Below are positions 51,113 through 61,095 of a stretch of DNA of 64,000 nt, piece by piece (the first letter of the stretch is position 1; the number at the start of each line of letters is the position of its first letter). Under the pieces are notes generated by a model. The model made no database searches, was not told the origin of the DNA, and saw nothing but the letters and a program-made list of their open reading frames with translations. The stretch is taken from positions 1,121,001 through 1,185,000 of the forward strand of contig NZ_VISI01000002.1 of NCBI RefSeq assembly GCF_007827365.1, in the 5' to 3' direction. The stretch is from Olleya sp. Hel_I_94 (GTDB lineage Bacteria > Bacteroidota > Bacteroidia > Flavobacteriales > Flavobacteriaceae). The position numbers and the translations under genes are program-made.

Positions 51113-51964
51113 ATGACGACAAATTACGACGATATATTAAAAAAATTAGACAATAAATTAGATATTCTTGAAATAGAAGAACAAGATATTTTACTCAAAG
51201 CTGAAAAAGGGATTAAACTTGCAAAACAGACCCTTAAATCAGTTAGAAGTATCGTAGTTGATTATGAATTTGAAACCAAATTAGAGGAAATTCATTTCTT
51301 TAAATGTACTAAACCAAAAATTTATAGCAAACTTATTTATTACGTAAAATTATTTAACATTGAAAGTAAAAGACCCAGGGGAAGCAATAAATCGCAAGTA
51401 AAGTATTTGAACAATTATATTGAGAAACTTCAAACCTACTTTAACGACAATCTTGATTTTTACCATTATTACCGCAGGGAAGCTACTGTATTTGATGAGC
51501 AATATTTTTTAAGAGGCAAGGCAGATATTCGGTTGTTCCCAGACTCATTTCACTTTTTTGTTGATGAAGAATTTGCAACAAGCCACGATAGTACCGTGGC
51601 CTCAATTTTAGCCTACGACCTTTTGATTGTACACTTAAAACGGGAAATTGATAAATTGGAGAATAATGGAAATTATGCAAGTTTAAGATTGTTACAAAGT
51701 AAAACCAAAATTACCTGGACAGCCCACAAAATATATTTAATTGAACTGATATACGCTTTGCACAGTACAGATGTCATTAATAATGGTACTGTTGACATTA
51801 AAGATATTGCCTATTTTGTTGAAAAAACATTTAAAGTAGACTTGGGCGATTATTACAGGGCTTTTTTGGAAATACGGATGCGTAAAAATGGCAGAACCAA
51901 ATTTTTGGATATTCTGAAAAAGCAGTTGACCAAACGGATGGATGATACTGATAACGTAAAATAA
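51113..51964 (+). CDS. rteC: RteC-family regulator of conjugative transfer
   Basis: A 283-residue RteC-like protein, a winged-helix-type regulator of excision and transfer genes in Bacteroidota ICEs of the CTnDOT kind. Recognisable segments are an N-terminal helical coiled-coil, HFFKCTKPKIYSKLIYYVKL, and a C-terminal domain with KITWTAHKIYLIELIYALHS. It marks the return of backbone genes after the metal cargo. The partner two-component genes rteA and rteB are not in the window. It ends in a strong terminator. Confidence 0.87.
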   Translation: MTTNYDDILKKLDNKLDILEIEEQDILLKAEKGIKLAKQTLKSVRSIVVDYEFETKLEEIHFFKCTKPKIYSKLIYYVKLFNIESKRPRGSNKSQVKYLNNYIEKLQTYFNDNLDFYHYYRREATVFDEQYFLRGKADIRLFPDSFHFFVDEEFATSHDSTVASILAYDLLIVHLKREIDKLENNGNYASLRLLQSKTKITWTAHKIYLIELIYALHSTDVINNGTVDIKDIAYFVEKTFKVDLGDYYRAFLEIRMRKNGRTKFLDILKKQLTKRMDDTDNVK

Positions 51965-52525: not shown

Positions 52526-53212
52526 TTGGAGCAGGTCAATTACATTAAGCACCTAAACGCTGTATTCTTACAATTCTCAAAGGATAGCCGTTTAAATCCC
52601 ACGCACATAAGTTTGTACGTGGCATTGTTTCAATTATGGAACAACTATCACTTTCCGACAGAATTCTATATCAATCGAGAAGAAGCGATGCGGTTTTCCA
52701 AGATTGGTTCAAAAACTACCTACCATCGCTGCATCAAAGAACTACATCATTGGAAATACCTATTATACGAACCCTCACATAATCCATTTAAAGGCAGCAG
52801 AATCAAGATGTTCAATTTTGGGACAAGTGATGGACAAGCTCTGTACCCAAACCCTACCAATATCGGAACAAGCAATGGACAAGCGGTGGTATCTATAAAC
52901 AAACATATACAAACAGGAAAAAACAAAGCAAATGATACTAAACTTGACCAACCAAAAAATGAAAATGAAGTCATTGATTTTTTTGAAAAGGAAAATTGGC
53001 CAGAATTGGAAGCCAAAAAATTTTACAACCACTACCAAGGCATCGGTTGGAAAGTAGGTGGAAAAACAAAAATTGTCGATTGGCACGCCACAGCTCGAAA
53101 CTGGATGATAAAGGCCGAAGAGCTAAAAGAAGAAAAAACAATGGTTGCAGTTAGCCAAAATACGGACAACCTAAAGACAAGTTCCAACAAAAATTATAAT
53201 GAACCATTATGA
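52526..53212 (+). CDS. ICE replication/regulation-type protein with a TTG start
   Basis: A 228-residue protein. The N-terminal region (NPTHISLYVALFQLWNNYHF followed by FYINREEAMRFSKIGSKTTY) resembles the winged-helix domain of phage and element replication or transcription proteins. A low-complexity linker follows, then a DnaD-like C-terminus (AKKFYNHYQGIGWKVGGKTK, WHATARNWM). I start at a TTG at 52526, because conserved residues begin there and no ATG exists before residue 51. It overlaps the DnaC-like ATPase by 4 bp (ATGA). Confidence 0.68.
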   Translation: MEQVNYIKHLNAVFLQFSKDSRLNPTHISLYVALFQLWNNYHFPTEFYINREEAMRFSKIGSKTTYHRCIKELHHWKYLLYEPSHNPFKGSRIKMFNFGTSDGQALYPNPTNIGTSNGQAVVSINKHIQTGKNKANDTKLDQPKNENEVIDFFEKENWPELEAKKFYNHYQGIGWKVGGKTKIVDWHATARNWMIKAEELKEEKTMVAVSQNTDNLKTSSNKNYNEPL

Positions 53213-53871
53213 ATCCCCACAAACCACATATCATTACCGAGGGTAGCGTTCAATACACCTTGGGAGAACTGAAAGACAATCAAATGCTTTATGATTTTGA
53301 TAAAATGCTAATTTATCTCAATGCCAAAGGAAAACTACTTTTTGGCAAGAAATTCAAAATTTTTGAAGAAGACCGTGATATTATATTCAAGCTCTGTAAT
53401 TATTTTATCAGGGATGAAGCTAATTGCAAAAAATTAGACATCGACCGCGATAAAGGGATTTTGCTTTCTGGTCCTGTTGGTTGTGGAAAAACCAGTTTAA
53501 TGAAACTGTTACGCCATATTGTGCCACATCAGAAATCGTATGAGGTTATACCCACACGAAACATTGCCTTTGCCTTTAATAATATTGGGTACACCATCAT
53601 TGAAAATTACGGCGACAAAAAGTTTTATTGTTTTGATGATTTGGGTGTAGAACCCACCGGAAGGCATTTTGGAAAAGATTGTAATGTAATGGGCGAAATC
53701 TTACTTTCACGTTATGATTTATTTTTAAGTCATAAAACTAAAACACACGCAACTACAAACCTCAATGCTAAAGAACTGGAGGAACGTTATGGGAATAGGG
53801 TACGTTCAAGGATGCGACAACTGTTCAATTTAATTGCCTTTGATAAAAGCAGTCGTGATAAAAGGGATTAA
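53209..53871 (+). CDS. DnaC/IstB-like ATP-binding protein
   Basis: A 220-residue AAA+ ATPase with Walker A GPVGCGKT at 88-95 and a Walker B-type YCFDDLGVEPTG. It is similar in size and layout to DnaC/IstB helicase loaders. With the preceding winged-helix protein it probably forms a primosome-like unit for replication of the excised element, analogous to DnaD/DnaC pairs in phages. It ends 2 bp before the stop of the opposite-strand gene. Confidence 0.82.
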   Translation: MNPHKPHIITEGSVQYTLGELKDNQMLYDFDKMLIYLNAKGKLLFGKKFKIFEEDRDIIFKLCNYFIRDEANCKKLDIDRDKGILLSGPVGCGKTSLMKLLRHIVPHQKSYEVIPTRNIAFAFNNIGYTIIENYGDKKFYCFDDLGVEPTGRHFGKDCNVMGEILLSRYDLFLSHKTKTHATTNLNAKELEERYGNRVRSRMRQLFNLIAFDKSSRDKRD

Positions 53872-53873
53872 AT

Positions 53874-54299
53874 CTAATTTTGGTTTTCTTCCTCTAAAAG
53901 AAGTAGTTCGTGTATCATATCGCTTTCATCCAAATATTGAGCCAACCATTCTTGTTGGGAAAGCCAATTGATATACTCTTTATCAGATTCCCAAATAGCT
54001 TCAACATATTCCCCTCTATATTTACCGAAACTAAATTTCGTTCCAGAATCTTGTCCCTCAACTTCAGTATCGAACAATTTGTAATAGGTTTCTAATAAAC
54101 CTTCTTCTCTACACCTGTAATACAGCCATTGTTTTTTATAGCCTTTGTATTGCCTTCTTTTTTCAAGATATTTTACCATTTCAACATCAGATAAGGCCTT
54201 AAATGAATTTCGTTTGGTTTTTGGTTTAAACAACCATCCAAAAGTCATCCCCAAAGTATTTTGAAGTACGTTCAAAAAGAAAATTGCAATTGCTCTCAT
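53874..54299 (-). CDS. ExoX C-terminal-like domain protein
   Basis: A 141-residue protein with a hydrophobic N-terminus (AIAIFFLNVLQNTLGMTFGW). Near residues 88-120 is the stretch FSFGKYRGEYVEAIWESDKE followed by YINWLSQQEWL, which resembles the small C-terminal domain found in exodeoxyribonuclease X and DUF3820-like proteins. A role in DNA handling is possible; no nuclease motif is seen. It is transcribed away from the OLD nuclease gene. Confidence 0.55.
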   Translation of the reverse strand: MRAIAIFFLNVLQNTLGMTFGWLFKPKTKRNSFKALSDVEMVKYLEKRRQYKGYKKQWLYYRCREEGLLETYYKLFDTEVEGQDSGTKFSFGKYRGEYVEAIWESDKEYINWLSQQEWLAQYLDESDMIHELLLLEEENQN

Positions 54300-54483
54300 T
54301 TTATTTGCACTAGAGTTTATAACACTCTAATTAGGCTTAATTTACGAAAAAAAACCAAAATTTTGACTTCCAGAAGTAAAGATATATTCTTAATAAAATT
54401 TTAACAATTTGTAGGAAACCGTAAGAATTTAAAAAGACATTTCAGTATATTTATAGGCGATTACGCTTAAAATATTAATGTTT

Positions 54484-54514
54484 AAAAAGCTAATGGGAAA
54501 TCATTGGCTTTTTT
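54484..54514. terminator. Terminator-like hairpin just before the defence-like operon
   Basis: AAAAAGCTAATG pairs with CATTGGCTTTTT (one wobble) over a six-base loop, with T tracts in both directions. It ends 20 bp before the ATG at 54535. Because it lies inside the apparent longer open frame, the frame's first 19 codons are unlikely to be coding. It may insulate the island or attenuate its transcription. Confidence 0.65.
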
Positions 54515-54534
54515 ATTGTTTCAAAATAATTATT

Positions 54535-56649
54535 ATGCATATAAGTTCACTATCCATTAGGAATTTTAGAAATTTCTATAAATCAAAATTCATTTTTAAA
54601 AAAGGTATAAATACTATTTTAGGAGAAAACGGTTCAGGTAAAACCAATCTCTTTTTTGCTTTACGAGTTTTAATTGATGATAAACTTCCAAGATATATAA
54701 GATTTAATGAGTCTGACTTTAACCGAGGTCTGGGTAAATGGGCTGGACATTGGATAATTTTATCGGTTACTTTTGACGAACTGGATGCGAGTGAAGAAGC
54801 ACAGGTACTGGCAGTACAATCTTCGGGAGATATGGAAGGCAGCAAAAAGACTGGAAGTTACTCGGTGTACTTTAGACCAAAATATCAGTTTAGAAAAGAA
54901 TTATATGATTATTCACAAACCGCAGGTAAAAGTGTAGCAGGGCTTCAGCTTTTTTTTGATAAACTTACGATTGATGATTATGAAACGTCTTACTTATGCA
55001 GAGGCTCTGGAGATTTTAGTGATGACACTACCTATAAAAAGTATGTTGGCGATTTTGATGCTGTTGAATTCCCAAACCCAGATGATAAAGAAGAATTGAT
55101 TTTTGGAACGTTTCTGCCGAGGGAAATAAGTGTGCACAACGAGGTTTCTTGTACGTTCATTAAAGCACTTCGAGATGTCGAAAGCGACTTACGTTCCTAT
55201 TCTACTAATCCATTGATTAATTTATTACGAGGAAAGGAAAAAACTATTGAAGTTTCAAAACAAACGGACATCATTGATAGCGTTAACAAACTTAACGACC
55301 AAATTAGTTCTCTCAAAGAAGTAAAGGATGTGAAAGATGGAATTGACAAAAGTATTAAGGAAGCTGTGGGTACTACTTACGGCCCTAATATAGATGTCAA
55401 ATCAGAACTTCCAAATGATATGGAAAAACTACTGCAATCACTCAAACTATGGGTTGGCGACCCAGATGAAGAAGGTTATATGGGTAAAATATGGGAGTTG
55501 AGTTTGGGAGGTGCAAATATGATTTACCTATCACTAAAGCTATTGGAGTATGAAAAAATCAGAACGGATAGAATTGCAAATTTTCTTTTAATAGAAGAAC
55601 CAGAAGCACATATTCATACGCATATTCAAAAAACCCTTTTTGATAATGTGCAAACCAATAAAACACAGGTTATTATTTTAACGCATTCTACTCACATTTC
55701 ATCTGTAAGCCGAATAAGTTCAGTAAATATTTTAAGCCGAGGAAATATGCAGACTTTGGTATATCAACCATCTAACAATCTTGATGATGATTATATAACA
55801 AGAGCCGAAAGGTACTTGGACGCCATAAGAAGCAACTTGCTTTTCGCGAAAGGCGTTGTTTTGGTTGAAGGCGATGCAGAACAGATTCTCATTCCTCAAA
55901 TGTTTAAAAAAGTCTTTGGAATTTCGCTCGATGAAATTGGGATAAGTCTCGTAAACATTGGAAGTACAGGTTTTAAAAATGTTGCAAGGCTTTTCCATAA
56001 GGATAGAATTCAGAAAAACTGTGCCATACTAACTGACTTGGATGCCAGTATTGTCAATTTACCTGCAAATGAAGTTGATGATTCTGCTTATGAAAAACAT
56101 TGTAGGGCATCGCAAATTAGTGGAGCTGAAAGAAAAAAGGAATTGGATAAATTTTGTGACAAAAACGACTTCTTGATTCCTTTTTACTCTAAATACACCT
56201 TTGAAGTTGATTTCCTTTTGAATGGGAATAGCCACGAATACGTACAATCACTTCCTGAAATTTTCAAACAACAAGCAGCTATTGATTCTTCAAAGAAAAA
56301 GTTAGAAGAAAAATCAGTTTCGATTGCAGGTGTAGAAGTTTTACGATTGGCTGATAAAAAAGGCAAAGGTTGGCTGGCGTTGGTTGTTGCAGATAATTTA
56401 GTTTACAATACTTATATTCCTGAATATATTTTGAAAGCCGTTGCTTTTGCATCTTCGCATTTAAATAATGCCTCTAAAGCTAAAACCGCTAAATACAGGT
56501 TACGAAAAATTAGTCGTAGTAAAAATGATAGTTATTACGATGTAGCAACAAAAATTAGTTTTAAGGATAAAGAAGACCAACAGGTTATTGATGACTATAT
56601 AGCCAACTTTCCTAATGACCAATTTACTAAATTTTTATCGTTTATATGA
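54535..56649 (+). CDS. OLD-family ATPase/TOPRIM nuclease, GajA-like
   Basis: A 704-residue overcoming-lysogenization-defect (OLD) protein. Walker A is GENGSGKT (30-37), the ABC-type signature is LSLGGANMIYLSLK, Walker B is FLLIEEPEAHIH (E354, E355), and the D/H-loop is ILTHSTHISSV. A TOPRIM domain follows with E445 (LVEGDAEQIL) and D501/D503 (LTDLDAS). It overlaps a UvrD-like helicase gene (ATGA), which makes it a class 2 OLD pair, the Gabija GajA/GajB arrangement. It is longer than the characterised B. cereus GajA (about 578 residues). Confidence 0.88.
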   Translation: MHISSLSIRNFRNFYKSKFIFKKGINTILGENGSGKTNLFFALRVLIDDKLPRYIRFNESDFNRGLGKWAGHWIILSVTFDELDASEEAQVLAVQSSGDMEGSKKTGSYSVYFRPKYQFRKELYDYSQTAGKSVAGLQLFFDKLTIDDYETSYLCRGSGDFSDDTTYKKYVGDFDAVEFPNPDDKEELIFGTFLPREISVHNEVSCTFIKALRDVESDLRSYSTNPLINLLRGKEKTIEVSKQTDIIDSVNKLNDQISSLKEVKDVKDGIDKSIKEAVGTTYGPNIDVKSELPNDMEKLLQSLKLWVGDPDEEGYMGKIWELSLGGANMIYLSLKLLEYEKIRTDRIANFLLIEEPEAHIHTHIQKTLFDNVQTNKTQVIILTHSTHISSVSRISSVNILSRGNMQTLVYQPSNNLDDDYITRAERYLDAIRSNLLFAKGVVLVEGDAEQILIPQMFKKVFGISLDEIGISLVNIGSTGFKNVARLFHKDRIQKNCAILTDLDASIVNLPANEVDDSAYEKHCRASQISGAERKKELDKFCDKNDFLIPFYSKYTFEVDFLLNGNSHEYVQSLPEIFKQQAAIDSSKKKLEEKSVSIAGVEVLRLADKKGKGWLALVVADNLVYNTYIPEYILKAVAFASSHLNNASKAKTAKYRLRKISRSKNDSYYDVATKISFKDKEDQQVIDDYIANFPNDQFTKFLSFI

Positions 56650-58421
56650 TTTTAGATACTTTAAGCGACCAACAAAAAGATGCCGTTGTTAAAGATGGAA
56701 ATGTACTTCTTACAGCTTGCCCAGGAAGTGGAAAAACACGAGTGATTATTCATAAACTCGCTTATGCTCTAAAAAATATTGATGTAAACAGTAAACAAAG
56801 GATTGTCGCTCTAACTTTTACCGTAAGGGCTTCCGAAGAAATATATCGCAGATTAAACGCAATGGGAATTAATAGTAATCGGGTTTGGTCTGGCACTTTG
56901 CATTCATTTTGTCTCGAATGGATTATAAAACCCTATTCCTGTTATTTACCTGAACTTGAAAACGGCTATTTAATTGCCGATGAAACTTATGCCTCGGATA
57001 TCATAAGTGAACTTAAAGAAAAGCATAAGTTAAAACCTATTGACCCGATTAATTTCAGATTCAATAGGGACGGCACATTTGCCGAACCAAAAACAATTCA
57101 AAAAAGAGTCCTTAAGGATTATCACGAAAGGCTACAAACAGAGAAGTTAATTGATTTTGAGCTTCTACTATACTATTCATACAAACTCTTAACCAAGCAT
57201 CCTAAAATAAAAAAAACGTTATCGAACATTTTTAGCCTTATATGTGTTGATGAATATCAAGACACGCAAGATTTGCTTTACGCAATTATTTCGTCGATTG
57301 TAACAACTGGGGAAGGTAGCTCAAATCTATTTTTAGTAGGAGATACAGACCAAGCAATTTATGCATCTTTGGGTGGCATTGCCAAAAGTTTGGAAGAAAT
57401 ACAGGAAGAGTTAAACACTTTACCTATTGAGCAACTTACGCTTTCTGGAAATTATAGGTCCACACAAAGAATTATCGACTTTTACTCTATATTCCAGACA
57501 AACCCAATTAAAATTGAAGCTATTGGTACTAATAAAGACGTTGATAGTATAATAACGTACAATAACACCATTGACAAAGGATATTTAGTAGATGAAATTG
57601 GACGACTTATAGAGCATAGTTTAGATAATGGAATTCCAGAAGATGAAATATGCGTATTGGTTCCGCAATGGTGGTTAATAACTACTATCACAAAACAGTT
57701 GAGAGCTAAACTACCAGATGTAAATTTTGATGCTTCAGGTTTAGCACCAATGTCAAAAAATCGAAATAACATTTGGTATAAGTTATCGAGGTTGTTCTTA
57801 ACGCAGCCACAACCAAAAATATATTCATTGCGATACAAATGGTGTTCTGAAGTAATTGAAAACTTTAAAGAACATACCAATACTGAATTCAGCGAACAAT
57901 ATCAAACAGAGCGAAATGTATTGAAATTGATTAACTCGATAACATCCAATGAAACTGAAGGTATCGATTATCTTAATGATTGTTTTGACCAGTTTTTAGA
58001 GGCTGTTGGGATTGACCAAACTATTTACGCACAACTTCTTATAAATAGGAAGACCTTTTTCGATGTAATAAAGAGCCGTCTTGAAGACCCAACGTTTCAA
58101 GTTCCAAGTGACATAGCATCATTTATGAGTTTTTATAGAGAAATGTCAGGCGTCGTCATCAATACTTGCGTTGGTGTTAAAGGAGAAGAATTTGAAACCG
58201 TTATTGCTTATGGTTTGCTAAATGGGTATATCCCACATTGGAATGACATTTTTACTGGAGACCCTGTTGCCGCTTCAAAAAAACTACTTTATGTTATCTG
58301 TTCAAGAGCCAAAACCAATTTACACTTGATATCAGAAACTGGCAGACAAACCAAAAAAGGAAACCCGTTAGAGATTACCCCAGAATTGCAAAATCTTAAT
58401 TTTGAATTTGATGAAATATAA
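56646..58421 (+). CDS. UvrD/PcrA-like helicase, GajB-like
   Basis: A 591-residue superfamily 1 helicase. Walker A is ACPGSGKT (24-31), motif II is VDEYQDTQ (D202, E203), motif III is LVGDTDQAIYASLGG, motif IV is SGNYRST, and later motifs are GVKGEEFETVIAYGL and SRAKTNLHL. Paired and overlapping with the OLD nuclease gene, it matches the helicase of Gabija systems, which act together against phage DNA. It lies 60 bp before the unrecognised third gene of the island. Confidence 0.88.
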   Translation: MILDTLSDQQKDAVVKDGNVLLTACPGSGKTRVIIHKLAYALKNIDVNSKQRIVALTFTVRASEEIYRRLNAMGINSNRVWSGTLHSFCLEWIIKPYSCYLPELENGYLIADETYASDIISELKEKHKLKPIDPINFRFNRDGTFAEPKTIQKRVLKDYHERLQTEKLIDFELLLYYSYKLLTKHPKIKKTLSNIFSLICVDEYQDTQDLLYAIISSIVTTGEGSSNLFLVGDTDQAIYASLGGIAKSLEEIQEELNTLPIEQLTLSGNYRSTQRIIDFYSIFQTNPIKIEAIGTNKDVDSIITYNNTIDKGYLVDEIGRLIEHSLDNGIPEDEICVLVPQWWLITTITKQLRAKLPDVNFDASGLAPMSKNRNNIWYKLSRLFLTQPQPKIYSLRYKWCSEVIENFKEHTNTEFSEQYQTERNVLKLINSITSNETEGIDYLNDCFDQFLEAVGIDQTIYAQLLINRKTFFDVIKSRLEDPTFQVPSDIASFMSFYREMSGVVINTCVGVKGEEFETVIAYGLLNGYIPHWNDIFTGDPVAASKKLLYVICSRAKTNLHLISETGRQTKKGNPLEITPELQNLNFEFDEI

Positions 58422-58481
58422 AAAATGTTGTAATCCATTTGTAACGATTTGAAAAATTAAGGATAGTGTTTTTAGGATAAA

Positions 58482-60191
58482 ATGAAGAAAATAGATTTAG
58501 AGAAAAAATCATTAGAAATTCAAAAAATAATCTCTCGTTATACAAAAGAGAGCTTTGTATGTTTTTTTGCTGATTTTATTAGACACCATCCAGAAAGAAG
58601 CAATATTGGATTTTCAAAAAAATTCAAGTCAAAATTAAAAGATTCTTTATATCTGATAATGTTAAGACTCTCTACACCATTGGCAGGCAAGGAAGAACTT
58701 CATTATTCAGAAAAAAATGATTTAGTACTTCAGCAAGTTGCTGACATTCTTTTAGAGATAGTTAGTTTCTATTTATCAGAAAATTATGAGGGAAATGAAT
58801 TTGATGAGATTTCTGATAAAAGACAAAAATTACTTGTTCACGAATTAGCATTCAAAAATTACTTTCAAAACGGAATATTAAATTATAGAGAACAAGAGGT
58901 AAATAAGGTTATTAGGATGTTTAAACCTTATCAAGATAAAATACAGGAAAGATTAGAAATCGATTTAAAAACCTTAATTAATTTATGCAATCATTCTGAA
59001 TTAATTTATCGTGCAAAGTCAATAAATTCAAAGTCATTTATTTTAGACAAAGGCTTTGACAAACTGGCTCGACAATCTGCAAATGGATTATTAGCAGAGA
59101 ATGAGTTTACAGATAAGCTGTTAGAACTTTCGAATGAGACCCAAGAAAGTTTTTTGAATTTTTTTGAGAAACCCCACCAATGTTTACTTTTTGCCAAACA
59201 AGATTTTCACCTCTCTTTTGAAGAAAAACATATTGATATTTTCTGTGGCTTATTTTCAATTGATATTAAAGATAATCATAGTAATTTATTTTATTCCCAA
59301 CAAAATCCTTTAGAAAATAAACCGATTATAAGAATTAGTGATAATCAGTATTTAAACGTATATCAAAAACAATTGCCTTCAGCTCTATATGATTTACTTT
59401 ATACCACGCTTACTCAAACAAAAAAGGAAAAAGAACAAGTAAATTTCCGTAGAGGAAAAGTTGTTTTGGAAAGCCATACTTTGGATATATTTAAAAAATT
59501 CTTCAAAAAATCAAAAAGGATTAAAATTTTCACCAACTATTACATAAACAACGAGCCAGAAGAAAAAGATATATTAATCCTTGTGGATAATAACGCCTAT
59601 ATCATTGAATGTAAGGCTTCAAGATATAGAGAACCACGAAGGGTTACGGAACAAGCATACCAAAGAATTAAATCTGACTTTAACGACTGTATTCAAAAAG
59701 GTTATGACCAATGCTATCAGGTTGAACAGGAATTGTTAAACAATGAAAAGGTTATTGTTAGCTTGAAAAATAAATCGGAGGTAATTATCACGAATGAAAT
59801 TCACGAGATTTTTTGCATTGTAGTTACTTCAGAAAGATTTGCTTCCATACAAACCGATTTAGGATTAATGCTTAAAAGGAAAAATAATGAAGACCCTTAC
59901 CCTTGGTCAATATATGTCGATGATTTAGAAACTTTTTTGAAAGTGCTTTACAATAGTTTCAGTAATCCATCCAGAAAGATTTTTAACTTTTTGGAGCATA
60001 GAGAATTACTACACGGAAGATTAATAACCAATGATGAATTGGATGTATGTGCTATGTTCCTAAAAGACCCAAAGAACTTCAAAGAAATATGTGAAAGTGA
60101 ATATGTTGTTTTTACTGACCCAACCCTACAAAATTATTTTGACAAGTTATATTTTGACAAAAAACTAAAATTTAGGATTGAGGATTTTTAG
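58482..60191 (+). CDS. Unrecognised protein with PD-(D/E)XK-like nuclease core
   Basis: A 569-residue soluble protein that I do not recognise. Residues 1-300 are helical and charged without a clear domain. In the C-terminal part, E330, D363 (EKDILILVDNNAYII) and E376-C377-K378 (IIECKAS) form the E...D...ExK pattern of PD-(D/E)XK nucleases. A helix with RRVTEQAYQRIKSDFNDCIQ follows. It has no transmembrane segments. Position behind the OLD/UvrD pair suggests a third component or associated restriction nuclease of a defence island. Very AT-rich by eye compared with the tra genes. Confidence 0.72.
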   Translation: MKKIDLEKKSLEIQKIISRYTKESFVCFFADFIRHHPERSNIGFSKKFKSKLKDSLYLIMLRLSTPLAGKEELHYSEKNDLVLQQVADILLEIVSFYLSENYEGNEFDEISDKRQKLLVHELAFKNYFQNGILNYREQEVNKVIRMFKPYQDKIQERLEIDLKTLINLCNHSELIYRAKSINSKSFILDKGFDKLARQSANGLLAENEFTDKLLELSNETQESFLNFFEKPHQCLLFAKQDFHLSFEEKHIDIFCGLFSIDIKDNHSNLFYSQQNPLENKPIIRISDNQYLNVYQKQLPSALYDLLYTTLTQTKKEKEQVNFRRGKVVLESHTLDIFKKFFKKSKRIKIFTNYYINNEPEEKDILILVDNNAYIIECKASRYREPRRVTEQAYQRIKSDFNDCIQKGYDQCYQVEQELLNNEKVIVSLKNKSEVIITNEIHEIFCIVVTSERFASIQTDLGLMLKRKNNEDPYPWSIYVDDLETFLKVLYNSFSNPSRKIFNFLEHRELLHGRLITNDELDVCAMFLKDPKNFKEICESEYVVFTDPTLQNYFDKLYFDKKLKFRIEDF

Positions 60192-60263
60192 TTTTAATTA
60201 TCTCTTTGAAGATAGTTATAATAATCTTTCTAATGCTTTTTACAATTTCCATAAATATTTCCT

Positions 60264-60929
60264 TCATAACCCAACATTTAAATAGTTATACAATCCCATT
60301 AAAATGGCCAATGCCATTGCTCTTATATTTTTGGGCTTTAAAAAATAATCTGCTTCATCGGTGCTCGAAATAAAGCCCATTTCGATGAGTATAGCAGGGC
60401 GAATTTCGATATTTTCACGTAGCACTTGAAAATTTGCGAATCGAACTGCTCGTTTTTTAAAGTCCAATTTCAGAGTGCTTTCTTCCAAAATGGACAATCC
60501 CATTCCGATAGATTTCTTTATAAGTACTTCTTCATCGTTGGTATTATGCACGTAAATGTCCATTCCTTTTGCCGATGTGTTAGAGGCATTGCAATGTAAC
60601 GATACAAACACATCAGCCTTTAAGCTTTCAGCTAATCGACTTCTATCGGATAAAGAAATTAAAGTGTCCATATATCTGGTCGAATACATATCAAACTCGT
60701 TATTTAAGAGGGTTTCATTTAGCCTTATAATCTCTTTGGCAATACTTAACGATACATCCTTTTCTTGAATACTATTTGTACCGATTGCACCAGTATCTTT
60801 TCCACCGTGTCCAGGGTCGATGATAATGACTTTTTGTTGACCGAAAATCACACAGAATTGTAGCATCAAAATCACAAAACTGACGTTTTTGGGCGTTACC
60901 CACTTCCAAAATTTTAGAGTTATCAACAT
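60264..60929 (-). CDS. N-acetylmuramoyl-L-alanine amidase
   Basis: A 221-residue exported cell-wall amidase of the Amidase_3 (AmiC-like) family. Zinc ligands are seen in DPGHGGKDTGA, the Glu of the following helix, SLHCNAS and the catalytic Glu in ILIEMGF. Near the start, after a basic stretch, is a hydrophobic segment (FVILMLQFCVIFGQ) that acts as a signal or anchor. The ATG at 60929 is chosen over a TTG at 60941. It opens the peptidoglycan for the conjugation pore; it lies beside the tra genes but is divergent from them. Confidence 0.87.
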   Translation of the reverse strand: MLITLKFWKWVTPKNVSFVILMLQFCVIFGQQKVIIIDPGHGGKDTGAIGTNSIQEKDVSLSIAKEIIRLNETLLNNEFDMYSTRYMDTLISLSDRSRLAESLKADVFVSLHCNASNTSAKGMDIYVHNTNDEEVLIKKSIGMGLSILEESTLKLDFKKRAVRFANFQVLRENIEIRPAILIEMGFISSTDEADYFLKPKNIRAMALAILMGLYNYLNVGL

Positions 60930-61095
60930 CGCACTTTTCAATTTTCATAAAATTTGATACCAATTCGCATCAAATAAAAACAATTGACATCAAAACTTAT
61001 TTTATTCACAATTTACTGATTATCAGTTCTTTGTATTGCAATATACACTATTTTTCAAATATCAAAATTGACGTAAAATCTAAATCACTTTGATT

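Follow-up and report, generated by a model that had tools for sequence, protein, structure and literature searches.

Here, we describe a defence locus within a 64,000-nucleotide stretch of DNA from Olleya sp. Hel_I_94 (contig NZ_VISI01000002.1, positions 1,121,001 to 1,185,000), which we call the window. The locus consists of a Gabija gene pair, gajA and gajB, followed on the same strand by a third gene, hereafter the tail gene (Table 1). A preliminary description had suggested a three-component Gabija variant or a new defence system, carried as cargo of an integrative and conjugative element (ICE). We found what appears by its sequence to be a complete two-gene Gabija, next to a member of a family of predicted nucleases that also stands beside several other defence systems.

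Table 1. Features of the locus and its ICE surroundings (window coordinates).
Feature	Position	Strand	Assigned by
GajA, OLD-family ABC ATPase with TOPRIM, 704 aa	54535..56649	+	PADLOC subtype PDLC00072, Pfam
GajB, UvrD-like superfamily 1 helicase, 591 aa	56646..58421	+	PADLOC subtype PDLC00127, Pfam
Gap between gajB and tail gene, 60 bp	58422..58481	+	
Tail gene, 569-aa NERD-like PD-(D/E)XK protein (E330, D363, E376, K378, Q410)	58482..60191	+	
RteC	51113..51964	+	
DnaC/DnaI-like ATPase of the ICE backbone, at the upstream end of the variable cargo slot	53209..53871	+	
N-acetylmuramoyl-L-alanine amidase, convergent with the tail gene, downstream side of the slot	60264..60941	-	

The end of gajA and the start of gajB have 4 bp (ATGA) in common, and the start of GajA at 54535 agrees with 704-aa homologues in two related loci (L006 and L091). 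Pfam recognises AAA_15 (2e-26) and an OLD-like TOPRIM (6e-19) in GajA and UvrD-helicase (1e-44) in GajB, while PADLOC assigns GajA to PDLC00072 (950 bits, 1.7e-286, nearly the whole model length covered) and GajB to PDLC00127 (754 bits, 1.9e-227). The pair also contains motifs of the Walker and TOPRIM type. A GajA with an OLD ABC ATPase and TOPRIM thus adjoins a UvrD-like GajB, which is the gene content of Gabija, and the earlier identification of the overlapping pair was confirmed in all its coordinates. Both proteins had been called longer than characterised ones; they do exceed the solved chains (GajA 575-598 residues, with one construct of 675; GajB 493-499), but 704 and 591 residues are normal lengths, because the PADLOC models of the subtype measure 709 and 594. 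Similarly, the tail gene had been described as AT-rich like the pair. It is AT-rich (28.7% G+C), whereas gajA and gajB (34.2-34.3%) match the window mean of 34.1%, and composition is therefore not common to both. Judged by its sequence, the pair is an ordinary, already catalogued Gabija on a mobile element, and the system at this locus is complete without the third gene.

The tail gene lies where it had been described, and E330, D363, E376, C377 and K378 were confirmed in its product. The gap that separates it from gajB contains no terminator-like site and a single promoter-like match (58449-58478, 9 of 12 positions), which equals the chance frequency. A structure model confidently predicts a PD-(D/E)XK core, and the catalytic residues are retained in 67-68 of the 68 aligned members of the family; the alpha-beta core with E/D...(D/E)xK residues that defines this fold, proposed earlier as a check, is thus found in model and conserved residues alike. 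The gene is under strong purifying selection, with a ratio of nonsynonymous to synonymous divergence (dN/dS) of 0.08-0.11. The Pfam domain NERD (PF08378) aligns to residues 339-422 and is carried by 33 of 83 homologues. The N-terminal 260 residues or so, helical and conserved, have no PDB match of their own. The closest solved fold is the N-terminal part of Upx (PDB 9wuf, chain residues 32-516 only); a PDB search with the family profile gave no sequence match at E values up to 1.

Is the tail gene a component of Gabija? A family scan with one genome per species yielded 77 loci, all but four of which (L054, L074, L075, L078) come from Bacteroidota, as judged by genus name; 76 were usable, since L078 had no open reading frame (ORF) match. 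Partner labels are PADLOC or Pfam matches, partly extended by clustering, and 44 of the 77 loci were scanned or clustered. A strong defence match stands beside the tail gene in 32 of the 77 (32 of these 44), in some by clustering. Gabija precedes the tail gene, or shares a co-directional stretch with it, in 11 of the 77 (L002-L007, L013, L015, L018, L022, L029; the GajA ORF of L029 is short), and its subtypes comprise PDLC00072 (the window type), PDLC00079 (L007, L022), PDLC00086 (L015) and a PDLC00146 GajB (L029); the label comes from PADLOC in L007, L015, L022 and L029 and elsewhere from similarity to the window pair or clustering. Conversely, we found no Gabija pair in 66 of the 77 loci, a count that includes loci cut by contig ends and one block with a GajB-like gene (L008), and from which a very divergent Gabija may escape. 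Occurrence mostly without such a pair is what the preliminary description had said would mark the gene as an unrelated neighbour.

Other partners are diverse. IetAS lies upstream of the tail gene in L009, L011 and L012 (scan-confirmed in L011 only), Wadjet I in L019, L021, L023, L025 and L026 (scan-confirmed in L019 only), and genes of type I restriction lie next to it in seven loci, all scanned: L032, L033, L043, L044 (downstream), L052, L058 and L071, where the upstream restriction gene stops 150 bp short of it. Single partners are HerA (L031), PDC-M68 (L020), PDC-S73 with TIR (L039), AbiH (L064), a GajB with a MukB-like block (L008) and an OLD protein (L016, a label that rests on clustering with L018), next to which a gene matches PD-Lambda-2_B (8e-19). 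BREX was absent from the matches of the scanned neighbours. In L018, a further OLD-like ATPase of 630 aa (L018:4925-6814) lies between Gabija and the tail gene, and its relative in L016 (L016:8028-9917) stands immediately ahead of the tail gene. Two of the three IetAS loci have IetS broken into two ORFs (L009:7464-9935, 655+148 aa; L012:7461-9932, 187+611 aa).

The locus occupies a slot between the DnaC-like ATPase and the amidase plus transfer genes, which bears out the earlier suggestion of ICE cargo; RteC is a marker of CTnDOT-like Bacteroidota ICEs. In this one ICE, the slot was found in four states: GajAB with tail gene, another Gabija subtype with tail gene (L007, tail 71%), IetAS with tail gene (L009, L011, L012; tail 59-61%) and the same GajAB without it. 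Arenibacter (L003) and Gelidibacter mesophilus (L004) carry near-copies of the window locus that are 99.95 and 99.98% identical along 15.5 kb, and Olleya marilimosa (L002) is 98.7% identical over 15.2 kb, copies so similar that they indicate recent transfer. In L005, a similarity of 85.3% extends into the transfer genes. In L006, the GajAB-tail block retains 84.5% DNA identity (54523 to 60437) while the backbone proteins are only 32-81% identical, a difference from which joint transfer of the three genes, as one block between diverged ICEs, seems probable. The tail-less state is represented by L091, with the same Gabija (89 and 93%) in the same slot: DNA similarity stops 2 bp beyond the gajB stop, and tblastn found no tail remnant (two chance matches elsewhere, E 3.5 and 7.3). 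L101, whose GajA and GajB are 60% and 49% identical to those of the window, also has no tail gene; beside its Gabija lie convergent ATPase and HNH-like genes (L101:3206-6203), Septu-like by our reading. The near-identical cassette of L013 has an intact GajAB and a tail gene split into two frames, possibly by sequencing error, and frame-broken tail genes also occur in L033, L067, L070 and L072 (decay or sequencing error). The third gene is thus neither constant in nor specific to Gabija. To call it an unrelated neighbour would be too strong, given the apparent block movement in L006 and the recurrence of Gabija on the family tree (below).

Among 397 Flavobacteriaceae genomes, the tail gene was detected in 8 at 1e-10, two of these matches being short or distant (G228, G075), and GajA in 5 at 1e-30 (G133 merely 32% identical); the two stand side by side in 3 (G000, G209, G321). 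Among 395 genomes of the window's class the numbers are 6 and 2, with both in G000.

The slot from ATPase to amidase or TraE1 (window 53872-61089; L105-L124) is itself a defence hotspot. Among ten slot proteins scanned, we found two further subtypes of GajA, a CBASS cyclase and the phospholipase next to it, and a type II methyltransferase; three others gave weaker matches (JetC, pAgo, PDC-M03A) and two none. A four-gene set of about 445, 216, 1080 and 316 aa, with a weakly MukB-like long protein, stands behind Gabija genes or alone within the slot (L008:2327-8443, L106, L108, L111, L124); its likeness between loci is one of gene order and size, JetC matched at 1e-7 in L111 and not in L008, and the set is possibly a Wadjet-like system not yet described. 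A small ORF between the ATPase and GajA (53874-54299, minus strand) has an ExoX-like C-terminal domain (3e-7) and recurs, among the slot set compared, only in L002-L004; L105 has a 141-aa ORF at the equivalent place (by position alone).

Gene position was counted in 66 loci (10 of the 76 with near-copies, broken or cut-off genes were excluded) and compared with 329 control genes of at least 300 aa from the same loci. Only 20 of the 66 tail genes (0.30) have a close co-directional downstream neighbour, against 0.66 of controls, and one-sided neighbours are upstream in 26 and downstream in 5 (binomial p 2e-4), against 59 and 61 among controls. A quick tree of 67 proteins (9 of 76 excluded, also from the residue alignment; two long branches, L074 and L075) bears 15 partner labels with 23 changes, compared with a minimum of 14 and a shuffled mean of 33.8. 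Partners have been switched. Gabija accounts for four changes at four separate places, which equals the number forced by well-supported branches; Wadjet I and IetAS each form one clade, and type I restriction-modification shows six changes and is no more clustered than expected by chance (99 of 500 shuffles needed as few). From alignments and models, the tail gene would encode a nuclease, probably active and maintained by selection, which is reshuffled between defence systems.

We therefore favour, with a probability of roughly 0.55, the explanation that the locus combines a complete two-gene Gabija with one member of an uncharacterised NERD-like PD-(D/E)XK family that serves as an auxiliary module of many Bacteroidota defence operons. 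The family is best read, from sequence comparison and modelling, as a mobile auxiliary or backup DNA nuclease, often the last gene behind diverse defence operons. The tail gene would be co-transcribed with the main system or placed beside it, and its product would be a metal-dependent DNA nuclease. We speculate that the helices of the N-terminal region sense or bind DNA in a state that arises from infection or from the cuts of the main system, such as ends or nicks, that the PD-(D/E)XK core would then degrade this DNA, and that the nuclease thereby extends the primary cut or takes over once the phage blocks the primary system. Such a backup or second strike is the most economical role for the protein. 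It fits both a proposal (PMC12839542) that backup nucleases in BREX loci, NERD among them, compensate when the primary effector is neutralised, and the logic based on DNA ends that a preprint (PMC12407980) reports for Gabija and Shedu. More tentatively, the tail nuclease might be a general plug-in effector that reads a common signal (DNA ends, stalled phage DNA), delivers a second strike under Gabija, IetAS, Wadjet, type I restriction-modification or HerA, and is swapped freely by mobile elements.

Several observations weigh against this explanation. Some partners (IetAS, AbiH) are not known to cut DNA, and a role in end processing is weaker for it. The window protein narrowly misses the NERD gathering cut-off (21.9 versus 22.1 bits). 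No partner was established in 45 of the 77 loci, 12 of them scanned with weak or no match and 33 outside the scan; matches were weak or partial in L036, L047, L053, L056 and L061, a PADLOC scan of neighbours in L024, L028, L030, L040, L057, L062 and L063 gave none, and the neighbours scanned were selected, not drawn at random. A close co-directional upstream neighbour is present in 41 of the 66 loci counted (0.62), not above the 0.66 of controls, so that "tail or solo gene" describes it best; 20 of the 66 have no such neighbour on either side, compared with 52 of the 329 controls, and many tail genes may therefore work alone. Moreover, the four places of Gabija may reflect independent acquisitions or an ancient association with losses in the intervening lineages.

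Could the tail gene, then, be a self-sufficient defence nuclease, like Upx or Shedu, whose neighbours merely accumulated in islands and ICE slots? This is a serious rival, because of the Upx-like fold and the solo loci, and we regard it as possible, if on balance unlikely: the bias toward the last position is strong, Gabija recurs on the tree, and in L006 GajAB and tail gene stayed alike despite a diverged backbone. We consider it improbable that the tail protein acts as a guard, which the defence complex keeps inactive until phage inhibition releases it to kill the cell or cut DNA. That it closely trails large complexes (Gabija, Wadjet, type I restriction-modification), some of which phages are known to inhibit, would suit such a role, as would the BREX proposal (PMC12839542); the solo copies do not suit it, and direct protein contact with each partner is unlikely because the partners are unrelated. 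Still more doubtful is a Gabija variant in which the tail protein is an obligatory third subunit. The short gap, the common strand and comparable levels of synonymous divergence across the three genes of L005 and L006 (dS 0.82 versus 0.92-1.11) would agree with it, but the many loci without a Gabija pair and the tail-less L091 and L101 led us to reject it, and the deviating G+C content and, unless a sequencing error, L013 point the same way.

Finally, a mobile-element nuclease for DNA recombination or maintenance, outside defence, would accord with three relatives (L034, L049, L050) that follow apparent ICE transfer genes, as judged by clustering and gene sizes, but is the least probable alternative, given the defence matches in most loci scanned or clustered and an ICE ATPase relative in 124 of the 397 Flavobacteriaceae genomes against the 8 with a tail gene. 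An ICE backbone gene was rejected on the same numbers and on its presence in 0 of 20 sampled slot stretches (TraE1 in 10 of 20); this sample consisted of the best ATPase matches minus the carriers G000, G209 and G321, with only 2 kb for L110, and because the carriers were left out it is no frequency estimate. Phage or plasmid origin was likewise set aside: our searches found no relatives in phage records or viral contigs, and two on plasmids, distant and partial.

Catalogues usually treat defence systems as closed sets of genes. If our explanation is true, effectors can be shared accessories, retained while the system ahead is exchanged, which would account for extra genes that detection tools drop. 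GajAB, GajAB with tail gene, another Gabija with tail gene and IetAS with tail gene in one ICE slot form a natural series on the contribution of the accessory. No paper on the tail-gene family was among the literature matches listed, and the name GajC returned only unrelated papers among the best 20 of 155 matches.

How does the locus compare with known systems? The pair resembles catalogued Gabija (PDLC00072/PDLC00127) in both genes, their order, overlap, domains and lengths, and differs by the added tail gene. Like the NERD proteins (PglW, DndF, Mokosh type I, Nhi-like), the tail protein aligns with NERD and retains the catalytic residues; unlike them, it has no fused kinase or helicase and has a conserved helical N-terminus. 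No Mokosh or Nhi model was among the PADLOC matches listed for the three proteins (the best 25 for GajA and GajB). Upx, which reportedly goes back to Gao et al. 2020, has a chain of 1212 residues with a further C-terminal part that the 569-aa protein does not match in length, helix-rich fold matches of this kind may be generic, and no Upx model appeared among PADLOC matches up to E 1, where the presence of such a model in PADLOC was unchecked. The fold match to Shedu SduA is weak, and no Shedu model was among the PADLOC matches. The closest parallel in arrangement is the auxiliary nucleases of BREX, likewise extra nucleases beside a complete defence system (PMC12839542); the tail family differs from them in being common to Gabija, IetAS, Wadjet, type I restriction-modification and others.
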